A stretch of 64,000 bases of DNA, taken from Bradyrhizobium sp. AZCC 1610. Its GTDB lineage: Bacteria > Pseudomonadota > Alphaproteobacteria > Rhizobiales > Xanthobacteraceae. Under the pieces are notes generated by a model that was not told the origin of the DNA, did not search any database, and was given only the letters and a program-made list of their open reading frames with translations. This document shows positions 13,173-63,162 of this stretch, in pieces. The translations under genes were made by a program, and so were the position numbers. Each line of letters begins with the position of its first letter. Position 1 is the first letter of the stretch. The DNA lies in the NCBI RefSeq assembly GCF_036924515.1, contig NZ_JAZHRR010000001.1:4125001-4189000 (forward strand), in the 5' to 3' direction.

Positions 13173-14761
<1,589 letters not shown>

Positions 14762-14836
14762 TCCAGATGCTATGGGGGGAGCGGCGGCGAGGGTGTGGAT
14801 ACCCTCGAGCGCCGTGATCACGCAATGGAGCACCCC

Positions 14837-15910
14837 ATGTCGCAATCGTTTGACGCCAGCAGGTCCCTCACCGCCTTCGAACAGGATAGCACGTTGGTCG
14901 CAGTGATCGAGATGAGCCAGTCGAAGTGGCTTGTTGCGGCTGTGATCCCGGGGGGCGAGCGCCAGCCCCTGAAGAAGCTTGGTGCAAATGCGGACGCTCT
15001 GCTGAAGCTGTTGCAGCGCTGGCAGGATGAAGCGCGCAAGGCCGGGCGGACGGTCAGGCGGATCGTCTGCGCCTATGAGGCCGGACGGGACGGATTCTGG
15101 CTGGCGCGCTGGCTGCAGGCGCGCGCCATCGAGGCCTACGTCATCCATGCTGCGAGTATTGCGGTGTCCCGCGAGCACCGGCGCGCCAAGACCGATCGGA
15201 TCGACACGGAACTGCTGATGCGATCGTTTCTCGGCTGGCTGCGTGGCGAGAAGCGCCATTGCAGCATGGTCGCGATCCCGACCATGGCAGAAGAAGATGC
15301 GCGGCGGCCGAGCCGCGAACGGGAGAGCCTCGTGGGCGAGCAGACACGGATCGTCAACCGGATCAAGGCTGTCCTCGCCCTGTTCGGCATCGGCGGGTTC
15401 AATCCGAGGCTGCGCAAGGCGGCGCAGAAGCTGGAGACACTGCACACCGCGGAAGGAACACCGCTGCCGCAGAATGCCGACGCGGAGCTGCGCCACGATC
15501 TGGAGCGGCTGCGCCTGGTGCACGACCAGGTCCACATCATCGAAAGTGAACGGTTGCGCCGGCTCGCGCTCGCGCCGGCCGCAACGACAAGGCCTCACGC
15601 GATGGTGCGTCTGATCGCAAGGGTTTTTGGCGTCGGCATCGAGACTGCCGACATGCTGGTGAATGAGGCGTTGGCGCGCAATCTGCGTGATCGCAGAGCC
15701 GTGGCGCGCTATGCCGGACTAACCGGCGCGCCGGACGAAAGCGGCAAGCGCCGGCGCGAGAAGGGACTGGCCCGCGCCGGCAACGGTCGGGTCCGCCGCG
15801 GCATGATCCAACTGGCCTGGCGCTTTCTGATCTTCCAGAAGGATAGCCGGCTCGTCCGCTGGTTCCGCGAGCGCACCGCGGATGGCCGCAGCGCCACGCG
15901 CAAACCATGA
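14837..15910 (+). pseudogene. IS110-family transposase, C-terminally truncated by a one-base deletion
   Basis: DEDD-type transposase with an N-terminal RuvC-like domain (VIEMSQSKW, YEAGRDGFWLARWL, KTDRIDTELLMR), a coiled-coil linker and the Tnp_20 domain (VFGVGIETADM, ARYAGLTGAPDESGKRRREKG with the candidate catalytic Ser). At 15902-15904 it has three A where copy 2 has four, giving K-P-stop and 357 residues instead of 390; without the deletion the frame would run to 16008. Start ATG 14837 is favoured by GGAG six bases upstream; the frame is open from 14795. Both catalytic domains are kept, so loss of activity is not certain. Confidence 0.88.
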
Positions 15911-16008
15911 TCGTGGCGCTGGCGCGCAAGCTGCTCATCGCGCTGTGGCGGCTGGCAACCACCGGCGAGATAACTGAGGGGCTCAGGCTGCGCCCGGCCG
16001 GCACTTGA

Positions 16009-16481
16009 CCATGCAGCTTCCGCAACTCCAACACGATTGACGGTTCAGCAGCCGGCAGTCTGCCGACGACATCCGAGGTGGCGGTGATCCGCCGGAATAC
16101 ATGGCCTTTGCGCCGCGACCCAGAATGGACCCGCCGCCCCGGAGCTTCGCCCCCCGATGCGCATGCATGCATCATGGTTCTGGTCCCGATCGATCAACCG
16201 AATACAAGTCTGCGACGCGGTATCGCGTCCACGGTGGGCTCGCCTCGGAAGTCGTCCCTATGCCGCTAACGCCAAACCTCGTCCCGCCCTCAAGCCTGCC
16301 GCCGGGCTCACGACCGTCAAGGGCTGCGTCGCTCCGCGATGGCCTGCGGCCACCCTTGACCGTCGTTCCGCCCAGGCGGCTAGTCGTCTCGGGGTCGGGA
16401 CGAGGAGATGTCGGTCTTCGTCGAACAAGGAGACGACAGCAATGATCTGACAACGATCACTCTTGATCACCCCCATACAAG
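16009..16481 (+). ncRNA. Candidate bridge RNA (seekRNA) region of IS copy 1; RNA ends not determined
   Basis: The 473-nt non-coding right end of the IS. Seen directly: GGTGATCC at 16083-16090 equals the left target flank (GGTGATCC|AG); GGAATAC at 16094-16100 is the reverse complement of the right target (G|TATTCC plus core G); ATACAAG at 16202-16208 equals the IS right end; ATCGCGTC at 16222-16229 is a near complement (one mismatch, one wobble) of the left-end sequence GATGCTAT. Hairpins include GGCGG/CCGCC around 16080-16093, GACGCG/CGCGTC 16214-16229, GTCAAGGG/CCCTTGAC 16316-16360 and GTCGTCTC/GAGACGAC 16383-16437. Known: IS1111-type elements encode the guide RNA downstream of the transposase. 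That this region does so here is inference. Confidence 0.65.
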
Positions 16482-16588
16482 TATTCCAGAGACATCTGTG
16501 CTTGAACCGAAAGGCCGCGGCGTACTGGATGCCCCGCCAGAGCCTGTCATCGGGCGGCCATTCGGCCGACCCGTTGGCGGGGCATGAC
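16482..16588. repeat. REP-like element, right part after IS copy 1
   Basis: Begins TATTCCAGAGAC and continues with the segment that ends ggcgtactggat, followed by a second hairpin closing in ggggcatgac. It is the continuation of the repeat cut at 14766. The 16482-16594 gap holds nothing else. Confidence 0.8.
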
Positions 16589-61347: not shown

Positions 61348-61417
61348 GTCATACCCGCCCATGCGGGTATCCAGTACGCCGCGGCTTATCGGTTCAATCA
61401 TTGACGTCTCTGGAATA
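61348..61417. repeat. REP-like element, part interrupted by IS copy 2
   Basis: gtcatacccgcccatgcggg ... ttgacgtctctggaata, ending precisely where the IS begins. The other hairpin of the same repeat is at 63134-63162. Confidence 0.85.
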
Positions 61418-61890
61418 CTTGTATGGGGGTGATCAAGAGTGATCGTTGTCAGATCATTGCTATCGTCTCCTTGTTCGACGAAGACCGACATCTCCTCGTC
61501 CCGACCCCGAGACGACTAGCCGCCTGGGCGGAACGACGGTCAAGGGTGGCCGCAGGCCATCGCGGAGCGACGCAGCCCTTGACGGTCGTGAGCCCGGCGG
61601 CAGGCTTGAGGGCGGGACGAGGTTTGGCGTTAGCGGCATAGGGACGATTTCCGAGGCGAGCCCGCCGTGGACGCGATACCGCGTCGCAGACTTGTATTCG
61701 CTTGATCGATCGGGACCAGAACCATGATGCATGCATGCGCATCGGGGGGCGAAGCTCCGGGGCGGCGGGTCCATTCTGGGTCGCGGCGCAAAGGCCATGT
61801 ATTCCGGCGGATCACCGCCACCTCGGATGTCGTCGGCAGACTGCCGGCTGCTGAACCGTCAATCGTGTTGGAGTTGCGGAAGCTGCATGG
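61418..61890 (-). ncRNA. Candidate bridge RNA (seekRNA) region of IS copy 2; RNA ends not determined
   Basis: Same 473-nt non-coding region as in copy 1. The putative guides are unchanged: left-target match at 61809-61816 (GGTGATCC on the minus strand), right-target complement at 61799-61805 (GGAATAC) and right-end match at 61691-61697 (ATACAAG). The flank of this copy is GGTGACCC, which the guide can pair with through one U-G wobble. Confidence 0.62.
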
Positions 61891-63063
61891 TCAGGTGCCG
61901 GCCGGGCGCAGCCTGAGCCCCTCAGTTATCTCGCCGGTGGTTGCCAGCCGCCACAGCGCGATGAGCAGCTTGCGCGCCAGCGCCACGATCATGGTTTTGC
62001 GCGTGGCGCTGCGGCCATCTGCGGTGCGCTCGCGGAACCAGCGGACGAGCCGGCTATCCTTCTGGAAGATCAGAAAGCGCCAGGCCAGTTGGATCATGCC
62101 GCGGCGGACCCGACCATTGCCGGCGCGGGCCAGTCCCTTCTCGCGCCGGCGCTTGCCGCTCTCGTCCGGCGCGCCGGTCAGTCCAGCATAGCGCGCAACA
62201 GCTTTGCGATCGCGCAGCTTGCGCGCCAGCGCCTCATTTACCAGCATGTCGGCGGTCGCAATGCCGACGCCAAAAACCCTTGCGATCAGACGAACCATCG
62301 CGTGAGGCCTTGTCGTTGCGGCCGGCGCGAGCGCGAGCCGGCGCAACCGTTCACTTTCGATGATGTGGATCTGGTCGTGCACCAGGCGCAGCCGCTCCAG
62401 ATCGCGGCGCAATTCGGCGTGGGCATTTTCCGGTAACGGTGTTCCTTCCGCGGTGTGCAGTGTCTCCAGCTTCTGCGCCGCCTTGCGCAGCCTCGGATTG
62501 AACCCGCCGATGCCGAACAGGGCGAGGACAGCCTTGATCCGGTTGACGATCCGTGTCTGCTCGCCCACGAGGCTCTCCCGCTCACGACTCGGCCGCCGCG
62601 CATCTTCTTCCGCCATGGTCGGGATCGCGACCATGCTGCAATGGCGCTTCTCGCCACGCAGCCAGCCGAGAAACGAGCGCATCAGCAGTTCCGTATCGAT
62701 CCGATCGGTCTTGGCCCGGCGGTGCTCGCGGGACACTGCGATGCTTGCGGCATGGATGACGTAGGCCTCGATGGCGCGCGCCTGCAGCCAGCGCGCCAGC
62801 CAGAATCCGTCTCGCCCGGCCTCATAGGCGCAGACGATCCGCCTGACCGTCCGCCCGGCCTTGCGCGCTTCATCCTGCCAGCGCTGCAACAGCTTCAGCA
62901 GAGCGTCCGCATTTGCACCAAGCTTCTTCAGGGGCTGGCGCTCGACCCCCGGGATCACAGCCGCAACAAGCCACTTCGACTGGCTCATCTCGATCACTGC
63001 GACCAACGTGCTATCCTGTTCGAAGGCGGTGAGGGACCTGCTGGCGTCAAACGATTGCGACAT
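61891..63063 (-). CDS. IS110-family transposase, intact
   Basis: 390 residues. DEDD N-terminal domain (VIEMSQSKW, YEAGRDGFWLARWL, KTDRIDTELLMR) and C-terminal Tnp_20 domain with VFGVGIATADM, GAPDESGKRRREKG and GNGRVRRGMIQLAWRFL. The C-terminus TMIVALARKLLIALWRLATTGEITEGLRLRPAGT-type tail, missing from copy 1, is present. Differences from copy 1 include PGVER/PGGER, LPENAHAELRRD/LPQNADAELRHD and ARKLRDRKAV/ARNLRDRRAV. The ATG at 63063 has GGAG six bases upstream; frame open from 63105. Could act on both copies. Confidence 0.92.
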   Translation of the reverse strand: MSQSFDASRSLTAFEQDSTLVAVIEMSQSKWLVAAVIPGVERQPLKKLGANADALLKLLQRWQDEARKAGRTVRRIVCAYEAGRDGFWLARWLQARAIEAYVIHAASIAVSREHRRAKTDRIDTELLMRSFLGWLRGEKRHCSMVAIPTMAEEDARRPSRERESLVGEQTRIVNRIKAVLALFGIGGFNPRLRKAAQKLETLHTAEGTPLPENAHAELRRDLERLRLVHDQIHIIESERLRRLALAPAATTRPHAMVRLIARVFGVGIATADMLVNEALARKLRDRKAVARYAGLTGAPDESGKRRREKGLARAGNGRVRRGMIQLAWRFLIFQKDSRLVRWFRERTADGRSATRKTMIVALARKLLIALWRLATTGEITEGLRLRPAGT

Positions 63064-63133
63064 GGGGTGCTCCATTGCGTGATCACGGCGCTCGAGGGTA
63101 TCCACACCCTCGCCGCCGCTCCCCCCATAGCAT

Positions 63134-63162
63134 CTGGGTCACCCGCCTTCGCGGGTGATGAC
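63134..63162. repeat. REP-like element, remaining part after IS copy 2
   Basis: ctgggtcacccgccttcgcg and on to ggtgatgac: the hairpin that forms the other half of the repeat at 61348-61417. Confidence 0.85.

Follow-up and report, generated by a model that had tools for sequence, protein, structure and literature searches.

The window analysed here, a stretch of 64,000 nucleotides from Bradyrhizobium sp. AZCC 1610, very probably carries an RNA-guided element of the IS110/IS1111 family whose four-guide RNA of ~192 nt addresses the edge of a REP-type repeat. The element, its copies, its target, a conserved RNA structure and the covariation of four RNA windows with DNA can all be read directly from the DNA. 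The general mechanism, RNA guiding and REP targeting were already known; what our analysis adds is a map of the four guides, in which two of the four placed by an initial annotation of this DNA are corrected.

The element, its copies and its insertion site

The window holds two copies of the element, on opposite strands, with the following features (LTG and RTG are the left and right target guides, LDG and RDG the left and right donor guides).

14757..14764, + strand: left target (LT) GGTGATCC, the 3' tail of a REP-type palindrome, from the flank and free repeats
14765..16479, + strand: whole insertion sequence, copy 1, 1715 bp, from ends and a flank type common to 12 copies
14765..14771, + strand: left 7-bp extension AGATGCT, the core AG plus bases predicted to be read by the RDG; conserved in relatives and in part varying with the RDG
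14772..14778, + strand: left subterminal inverted repeat ATGGGGG, from sequence, with its partner at 16470-16476
14825..15910, + strand: DEDD-type transposase gene, frameshifted in copy 1 and ending after 361 aa; Pfam PF01548 and PF02371
16470..16476, + strand: right subterminal inverted repeat CCCCCAT, from sequence
16477..16479, + strand: right 3-bp extension ACA, predicted to be read by the LDG, from copy comparison and covariation
16480..16487, + strand: core AG and right target TATTCC, the same in 12/12 copies
61365..63162, - strand: repeat holding copy 2 and parts of its flanks, with an intact 394-aa transposase and the same guides; RNA at 61643-61834

The element ends read AGATGCT-ATGGGGG on the left and CCCCCAT-ACA, then target AG, on the right, and the AG found at both junctions of copy 1 was counted with the left end, following published IS1111 practice. 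The subterminal inverted repeats ATGGGGG/CCCCCAT are perfect over 7 bp, and comparison with free repeats gave extensions of 7 bp on the left and 3 bp on the right, without target duplication. A non-coding stretch of about 470 nt, which includes the RNA, lies 3' of the transposase gene (tnp). Of 69 elements from the sample described below, 63 have a TTGAC box in the 26 bases preceding the right end; in the window's copies it reads TTGATC.

The genome contains 12 near-full copies, 96-97% identical to copy 1, and all 12 are inserted between CC and AGTATTCCAGAG, at the edge of a palindromic REP-type repeat. The repeats at these copies are of one kind with variable left halves; empty ones occur elsewhere and show the site uninterrupted. 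Sites of the form CCAGTATTCCAGAG number 15 in the genome, 12 of them occupied and 3 free, and the shorter CCAGTATTCC has 13 free matches (including the 3 free CCAGTATTCCAGAG sites) compared with 5 for the reversed control.

A full 394-aa transposase is encoded by 8 of the 12 copies, the gene being broken in the other four (copy 1 and loci L006, L010 and L012); the target guides are identical in all 12. The domains detected by Pfam are PF01548 (RuvC-like DEDD) and PF02371 (Transposase_20), and the copy 2 protein matched the NCBIfam family NF033542, 'IS110 family RNA-guided transposase', with 163.5 bits against a cut-off of 140. In a PDB profile search, the solved ISCro4 and IS621 matched the C-terminal part of a profile from 44 relatives; phmmer with a single transposase sequence found no IS110-type chain in the PDB. 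Residues E85, D124, D127, S306 and G307 are kept in all 71 transposases compared (10 from this genome); at the presumed first acidic position, residue 29 of the L003 transposase, 70 of them have Glu and one (L125) has Asp. If the residues correspond as read, a fixed Glu in place of D11 of IS621 is notable, because mutation of D11 is described as abolishing IS621 activity (PMC11208158); the correspondence is a reading of motifs, and the PDB profile match does not reach E29. The Ser-Gly motif region reads GLTGAPDESG; set against the IS1111 definition of 330-350 aa and a GL-P----S(t)G motif, this protein is longer and has its proline two residues later. Assignment of the element to the IS110/IS1111 family, as an IS1111-type insertion sequence, is supported by its transposase domains, its inverted repeats and end extensions and its downstream non-coding region.

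A conserved RNA structure downstream of the transposase

Transposase searches retrieved relatives at 56-84% identity from Bradyrhizobium, Mesorhizobium, Ensifer, Belnapia, Azospirillum and others, together with relatives at 37-44% identity from the same genus and order. They have common ends but different flanks, and their 3' non-coding regions align well, in the frame GAGGTGGCGG...CCG-[RTG]-NTGG...GCCG-[LTG]-AGAATGG...GATGCG..TGCATCATGG...CCGNATACAAG, where the variable RTG and LTG columns sit between conserved ones. This alignment used 43 of 60 distinct RNAs; duplicates from the window's own genome were removed before elements were counted. Two structured features were delimited in copy 1.

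16065..16256, + strand: predicted bridge RNA or seekRNA, 192 nt, from the alignment, folds, a match of 167.5 bits to model R1 and pair counts
16214..16229, + strand: terminal hairpin GACGCG-GTAT-CGCGTC, from the fold; similar in many relatives, without a left-end match, and including the segment 16222-16229 earlier taken for the RDG

The ends of the RNA were drawn at helix P1 (16065-16078 with 16243-16256) rather than at mapped transcript ends, and copy 1 is itself part of the model behind its R1 score. This closing helix is present in the fold of the window's own sequence and absent from the tool's consensus fold of the 43 aligned RNAs. The consensus contains 27 pairs, with 96.2% of cells paired and both sides changed in 11 of the 27; none of 500 shuffles reached any of five pairing measures, and slid controls dropped to 33-55%. 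The conserved pairing across relatives that the initial annotation had named as a check was found. In the predicted fold an internal loop places the RTG opposite the LTG, the RDG lies within the 3' arm of a conserved hairpin and the LDG is single-stranded. The hairpin around the RDG would have to open for the RDG to pair with DNA; the potential donor-binding bases of many IS1111 RNAs are reported to lie in a multiloop (PMC11208160). A search of Rfam at gathering thresholds returned no match in the window.

Further along, before the right end is reached, the DNA 3' of the bridge RNA contains a second strong hairpin (16314-16362, CCGTCAAGG ... CCTTGACCG). An exact-pattern scan of the 77 elements detected both of its arms in 13, of which two are at 42-44% transposase identity; this patchy spread suggests a separate unit.

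Model R1 was built from close relatives, and 16 loci of 37-44% transposase identity were kept out of its building. Thirteen of these 16 gave full-span matches, all a short way downstream of the transposase gene and on the same strand; L050 matched in part, and L062 and L063 gave nothing of use. At an E-value of 1, R1 had no match in L049, L063, L069, L070, L071, L073 and L077, and its match in L062 was weak and on the wrong strand. In a run over 88 loci at an E-value of 0.01, 10 were without a match (L035, L050, L053, L057, L062, L068, L099, L107, L143 and L145); L050, L053 and L057 did match in another run. Three of the loci without a match, L035, L107 and L099, have open transposases of 68-72% identity and have lost the right part, including the RNA, directly after the gene; they are perhaps relics, or movable only by the RNA of another copy. 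Elsewhere, loci lacking a match were truncated (L063) or remnants only (L062, L068). At L134 the model match (2596-2782) lies upstream of the transposase and is perhaps the end of a neighbouring element; the element set excludes this locus, as well as an additional match on the opposite strand of L032. Across 398 genomes of the phylum, R1 had a match in 8. Among the seven matches outside the window's own genome, three have an IS110-type transposase next to them; the other four (L168-L171, from other genera, E-values 2.5e-4 to 8.1e-4) are weak, have no such transposase within about 1.5 kb on each side and are probably false positives.

Covariation of the guides with the target and the element ends

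The aligned set comprised 77 elements (66 close and 11 distant, copy 2 among them) in 52 clusters. The left end was resolved in 62 of them, 60 with at least seven flank bases, and the right end in 69; distinct flanks numbered 52 of 60 on the left and 57 of 69 on the right. All 182 seven-base windows of the RNA were compared with both strands of every DNA segment, the choice of window being left free, and permutation tests at the cluster level used one element per 90%-identity cluster. The scanned elements are those in which the slots were first spotted, the independent part being the 11 distant clusters. Four guides emerged from the scan.

16094..16100, + strand: RTG GGAATAC, predicted to pair with the top strand of the right target GTATTCC; z 15.8, top of the 182 windows, over 46 clusters, 0/20000 permutations
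16115..16121, + strand: LTG GCGACCC, followed by the core AG at 16122-16123, predicted to pair with the bottom strand of the left target; z 15.7, top of the 182 windows, over 42 clusters, 0/20000 permutations
16168..16174, + strand: RDG slot TGCATCA, of which GCATC can pair with the top strand of the IS left end GATGC; z 7.1, top of the 182 windows, over 44 clusters, with controls reaching 4.9
16202..16208, + strand: LDG ATACAAG, predicted to pair with the bottom strand of the IS right end ATACA plus core AG; z 8.0, top of the 182 windows, over 46 clusters, with controls reaching 5.0

Comparison of guide bases with flanks across differing insertion sites, another check named at the outset, showed that the RTG and LTG slots follow the target. 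Wrong-strand controls in the target scans reached z values of only 3.5 (left target) and 3.3 (right target). With slots chosen by eye, the LTG matched its own flank at 4.93 of 7 positions compared with 2.05 for the flanks of others (n=44), and the RTG at 5.84 compared with 2.81 (n=49), each with 0/20000 permutations as good and with crossed controls at chance. The cluster tests gave 4.79 own against 1.83 others of 7 for the LTG (n=42) and 6.02 against 3.07 of 8 for the RTG (n=46), again 0/20000 each, as did both guides in the distant clusters alone (n=11). In this genome the RTG is the reverse complement of the right flank in all 12 copies; the LTG is identical to the window's own LT at 5 of 7 positions and to the 12 sites at 4-7 of 7. 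The RTG match was 4 of 8 or less in 10 of 69 elements, some of which are one-base register shifts. L041, one of the 10, shares an identical RNA with L040, from a different genome and with different flanks, and looks like an off-target insertion.

The right core is GG in 4 and AA in 2 of 69 relatives. Two free repeats in our locus set, L015 and L017, have a perfect RTG match but a GG core, and L015 has a perfect LTG match as well; that both are empty suggests that the core is selective.

In the donor scans, the control values of 4.9-5.0 and a second window in the right-end scan (z 5.3) come from relatedness alone, which makes the donor signals less prominent than the target ones. For the LDG, the cluster test gave 6.89 own against 6.14 others of 7 (n=46, 0/20000). 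In the 11 distant clusters the result was also 0/20000, every one of them matching at 7 of 7 positions; close relatives by themselves are uninformative for this guide (20000/20000) because their right ends hardly vary. The slot repeats the letters of right ends ATACA, ATATG, ATGTG, ATATA and ATGTA, each followed by the core, and matches at 7 of 7 positions in 61 of 69 elements and at 6 of 7 in the other 8.

Support for the RDG is the weakest of the four guides. Its slot was taken from model-aligned columns, extraction from the leftmost TGG having given the wrong slot in several rows, and the cluster test gave 4.55 own against 4.12 others of 7 (n=44, 0/20000), with 1/20000 in close relatives and 2236/20000 in the 11 distant clusters. 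Left end AGAAGC goes with RDG GCTTC (L037-L039, L042), AGACGC with GCGTC (L122) and AGATCCC with GGGATCT (L061); the fit is incomplete for AGAAGC of L120 and L121 and for the left ends AGATAC, AGATGA, AGATGG and AGATTC. In L037-L039 and L042 the 5' arm of the RDG hairpin is altered along with the RDG, so the change to GCTTC could also be driven by the hairpin; in L122 the RDG alone is altered. As judged from this covariation, the donor guides read the 7-bp and 3-bp end extensions typical of IS1111.

Alternative readings of the RNA

The initial annotation had assigned a right-end bridge RNA or seekRNA of an IS1111-type element, with guides matching its REP-type target, and covariation with the flanks supports it in this. 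It had placed the guides in the IS110 order, with LTG GGTGATCC at 16083-16090, RTG GGAATAC at 16094-16100, LDG ATACAAG at 16202-16208 and RDG ATCGCGTC at 16222-16229; all four strings are present there and in copy 2. We consider that arrangement highly improbable. An order like that of IS110 was itself a warning sign, because the published IS1111 order is the reverse, and the best windows of our scan run RTG-LTG-RDG-LDG instead of LTG-RTG-LDG-RDG. What speaks for 16083-16090 is an exact 8-mer shared with the left flank in copy 1 and two other copies, and the fact that, with wobble counted, its last seven bases are a closer fit than the LTG at 16115-16121 to most of the 12 sites. The identity with the left flank holds for three of the 12 copies (L001, L006 and L007) and not for the others. 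In relatives this slot is indifferent to the target: its own flank is matched at 2.00 of 7 positions and the flanks of others at 2.19, with 18575 of 20000 permutations as good (n=42), and an eye-chosen test gave 2.02 against 2.03 (n=46, 11516/20000). This segment is part of a conserved framework (GAGGTGGCGGTGACCCG and similar), has some of its bases paired in the consensus fold and is unchanged in many relatives with unrelated targets, which the initial annotation had said would count against a guide there; the annotation's appeal to U-G wobble applied to the wrong LTG. The stretch 16222-16229 matches the left end at chance level (3.55 own and 3.55 others of 7, for 62 elements not reduced to clusters) and forms an arm of the hairpin 16214-16229. 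For GGAATAC and ATACAAG, the z values of 15.8 and 8.0 in the window scan rule out chance as the source of the matches. By covariation, then, two of the four proposed matches are real guides and two are coincidences.

It is equally improbable, in our judgement, that the region is a structured 3' UTR or a regulatory sRNA (for example an antisense sponge) that guides nothing, its matches being accidental or derived from REP sequence. Such a role has a precedent in ISPpu9, a REP-targeting IS110-family element for whose downstream sRNA, Ssr9, the account in PMC8450116 proposes a regulatory function. However, matches of accidental or REP origin would stay the same when the insertion site changes, and here the own-target match is confined to two slots and to the right strand across 52 left and 57 right distinct flanks. 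A third possibility, compatible with a guide RNA addressing the REP-type repeat, is that the RNA family is real and the copies in this genome are immobile relics. The four broken transposases and the TTGATC reading of the right-end box point that way; set against them are the eight full-length transposases, the RTG and LTG identical in every copy and the close identity among copies, and we regard immobility as possible but rather unlikely.

Proposed mechanism and comparison with known systems

For the guide RNA addressing the REP-type repeat, transcription, processing, binding, catalysis and a circular intermediate are modelled by homology on published IS1111 and IS621. The transposase and the ~192-nt RNA from the 3' non-coding region would make up a recombinase with two substrates to be joined, the circular IS (right end-AG-left end) and a target carrying the core AG. 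On the 5' side of the target loop, the RTG would pair with the top strand to the right of the core and the LTG on the 3' side with the bottom strand to its left; in the donor part, the RDG at 16168-16174 would pair with the left end and the LDG at 16202-16208 with the right end. By analogy, joining of the ends may form a promoter for a transcript through tnp that is processed to the guide RNA, and the recombinase may hold target and donor on the two RNA parts while its serine cleaves next to the AG core. As the guides spell the edge of the REP-type repeat, the element would insert there, in one orientation; this would account for a single element filling most sites of one kind of repeat.

On balance we lean towards the view that these elements form an alphaproteobacterial bridge-RNA clade with an E-E-D-D transposase, in which both guide pairs are reversed relative to IS621 and the 7-bp and 3-bp extensions are RNA-read donor sequence reprogrammed in evolution along with the target guides. 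Two slots of one RNA follow the insertion site over the natural flanks sampled and two follow the IS ends, and how asymmetric IS1111 ends are recognised becomes directly testable. Such naturally re-addressed recombinases are a resource for genome-insertion tools; in practice, reprogramming of 16083-16090 should alter the RNA framework and not specificity. A full-text literature search for IS110 elements in Bradyrhizobium palindromic repeats found no paper.

It has been published that IS1111 elements are RNA-guided and that ISPa11 targets REP (PMC11187229); IS110-family elements that target REP have also been described (PMC1525189), and bridge RNAs are given as predicted in 93% of IS1111 elements (PMC11208160). 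As described for ISPa11, ISEc11 and ISKpn4 (PMC11187229), the RNA lies downstream of tnp and the ends have 7-bp left and 3-bp right extensions; like ISPa11, the element sits in REP sequences. According to the same source, the guide that pairs with the top strand comes first in IS1111 seekRNAs and second in IS110; here, too, covariation places this guide 5' of the one for the bottom strand (RTG before LTG). Unlike the IS1111 transposases of 330-350 aa described there, the present one has 394 aa, and unlike those of ISPa11, ISEc11 and ISKpn4, it has a displaced proline in the SG motif and E as the presumed first catalytic residue. The inverted repeats, at 7 bp, are shorter than the usual 11-13 bp (PMC11187229) and at the lower limit of the 7-17 bp range in PMC11208160, and the RNA, as drawn, has 192 nt compared with 70-100 nt for seekRNAs and 145-170 nt for their long form (PMC11187229).

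ISRel9, annotated in Rhizobium plasmids, has a related but distant transposase (42% identity over 93% of the protein). ISPpu9, ISPpu10 and ISRm19 likewise have REP as their target, in other hosts, and for ISPpu9 an sRNA of about 180 nt is reported to have been detected downstream, along with a direct repeat AG (PMC1525189, PMC8450116). With IS621, as described in PMC11208160 and PMC11208158, the element shares two DNA-binding RNA parts with a left and a right guide each, a core common to target and donor, and a recombinase with RuvC-like and Tnp domains and a Ser-Gly. It differs from IS621 in carrying its RNA at the opposite end of the element, in its core (AG, not CT), in E29 in place of D11 by motif reading, in an RDG within a hairpin arm and an LDG in a multiloop, and in a guide order of RTG-LTG and RDG-LDG compared with LTG-RTG and LDG-RDG.
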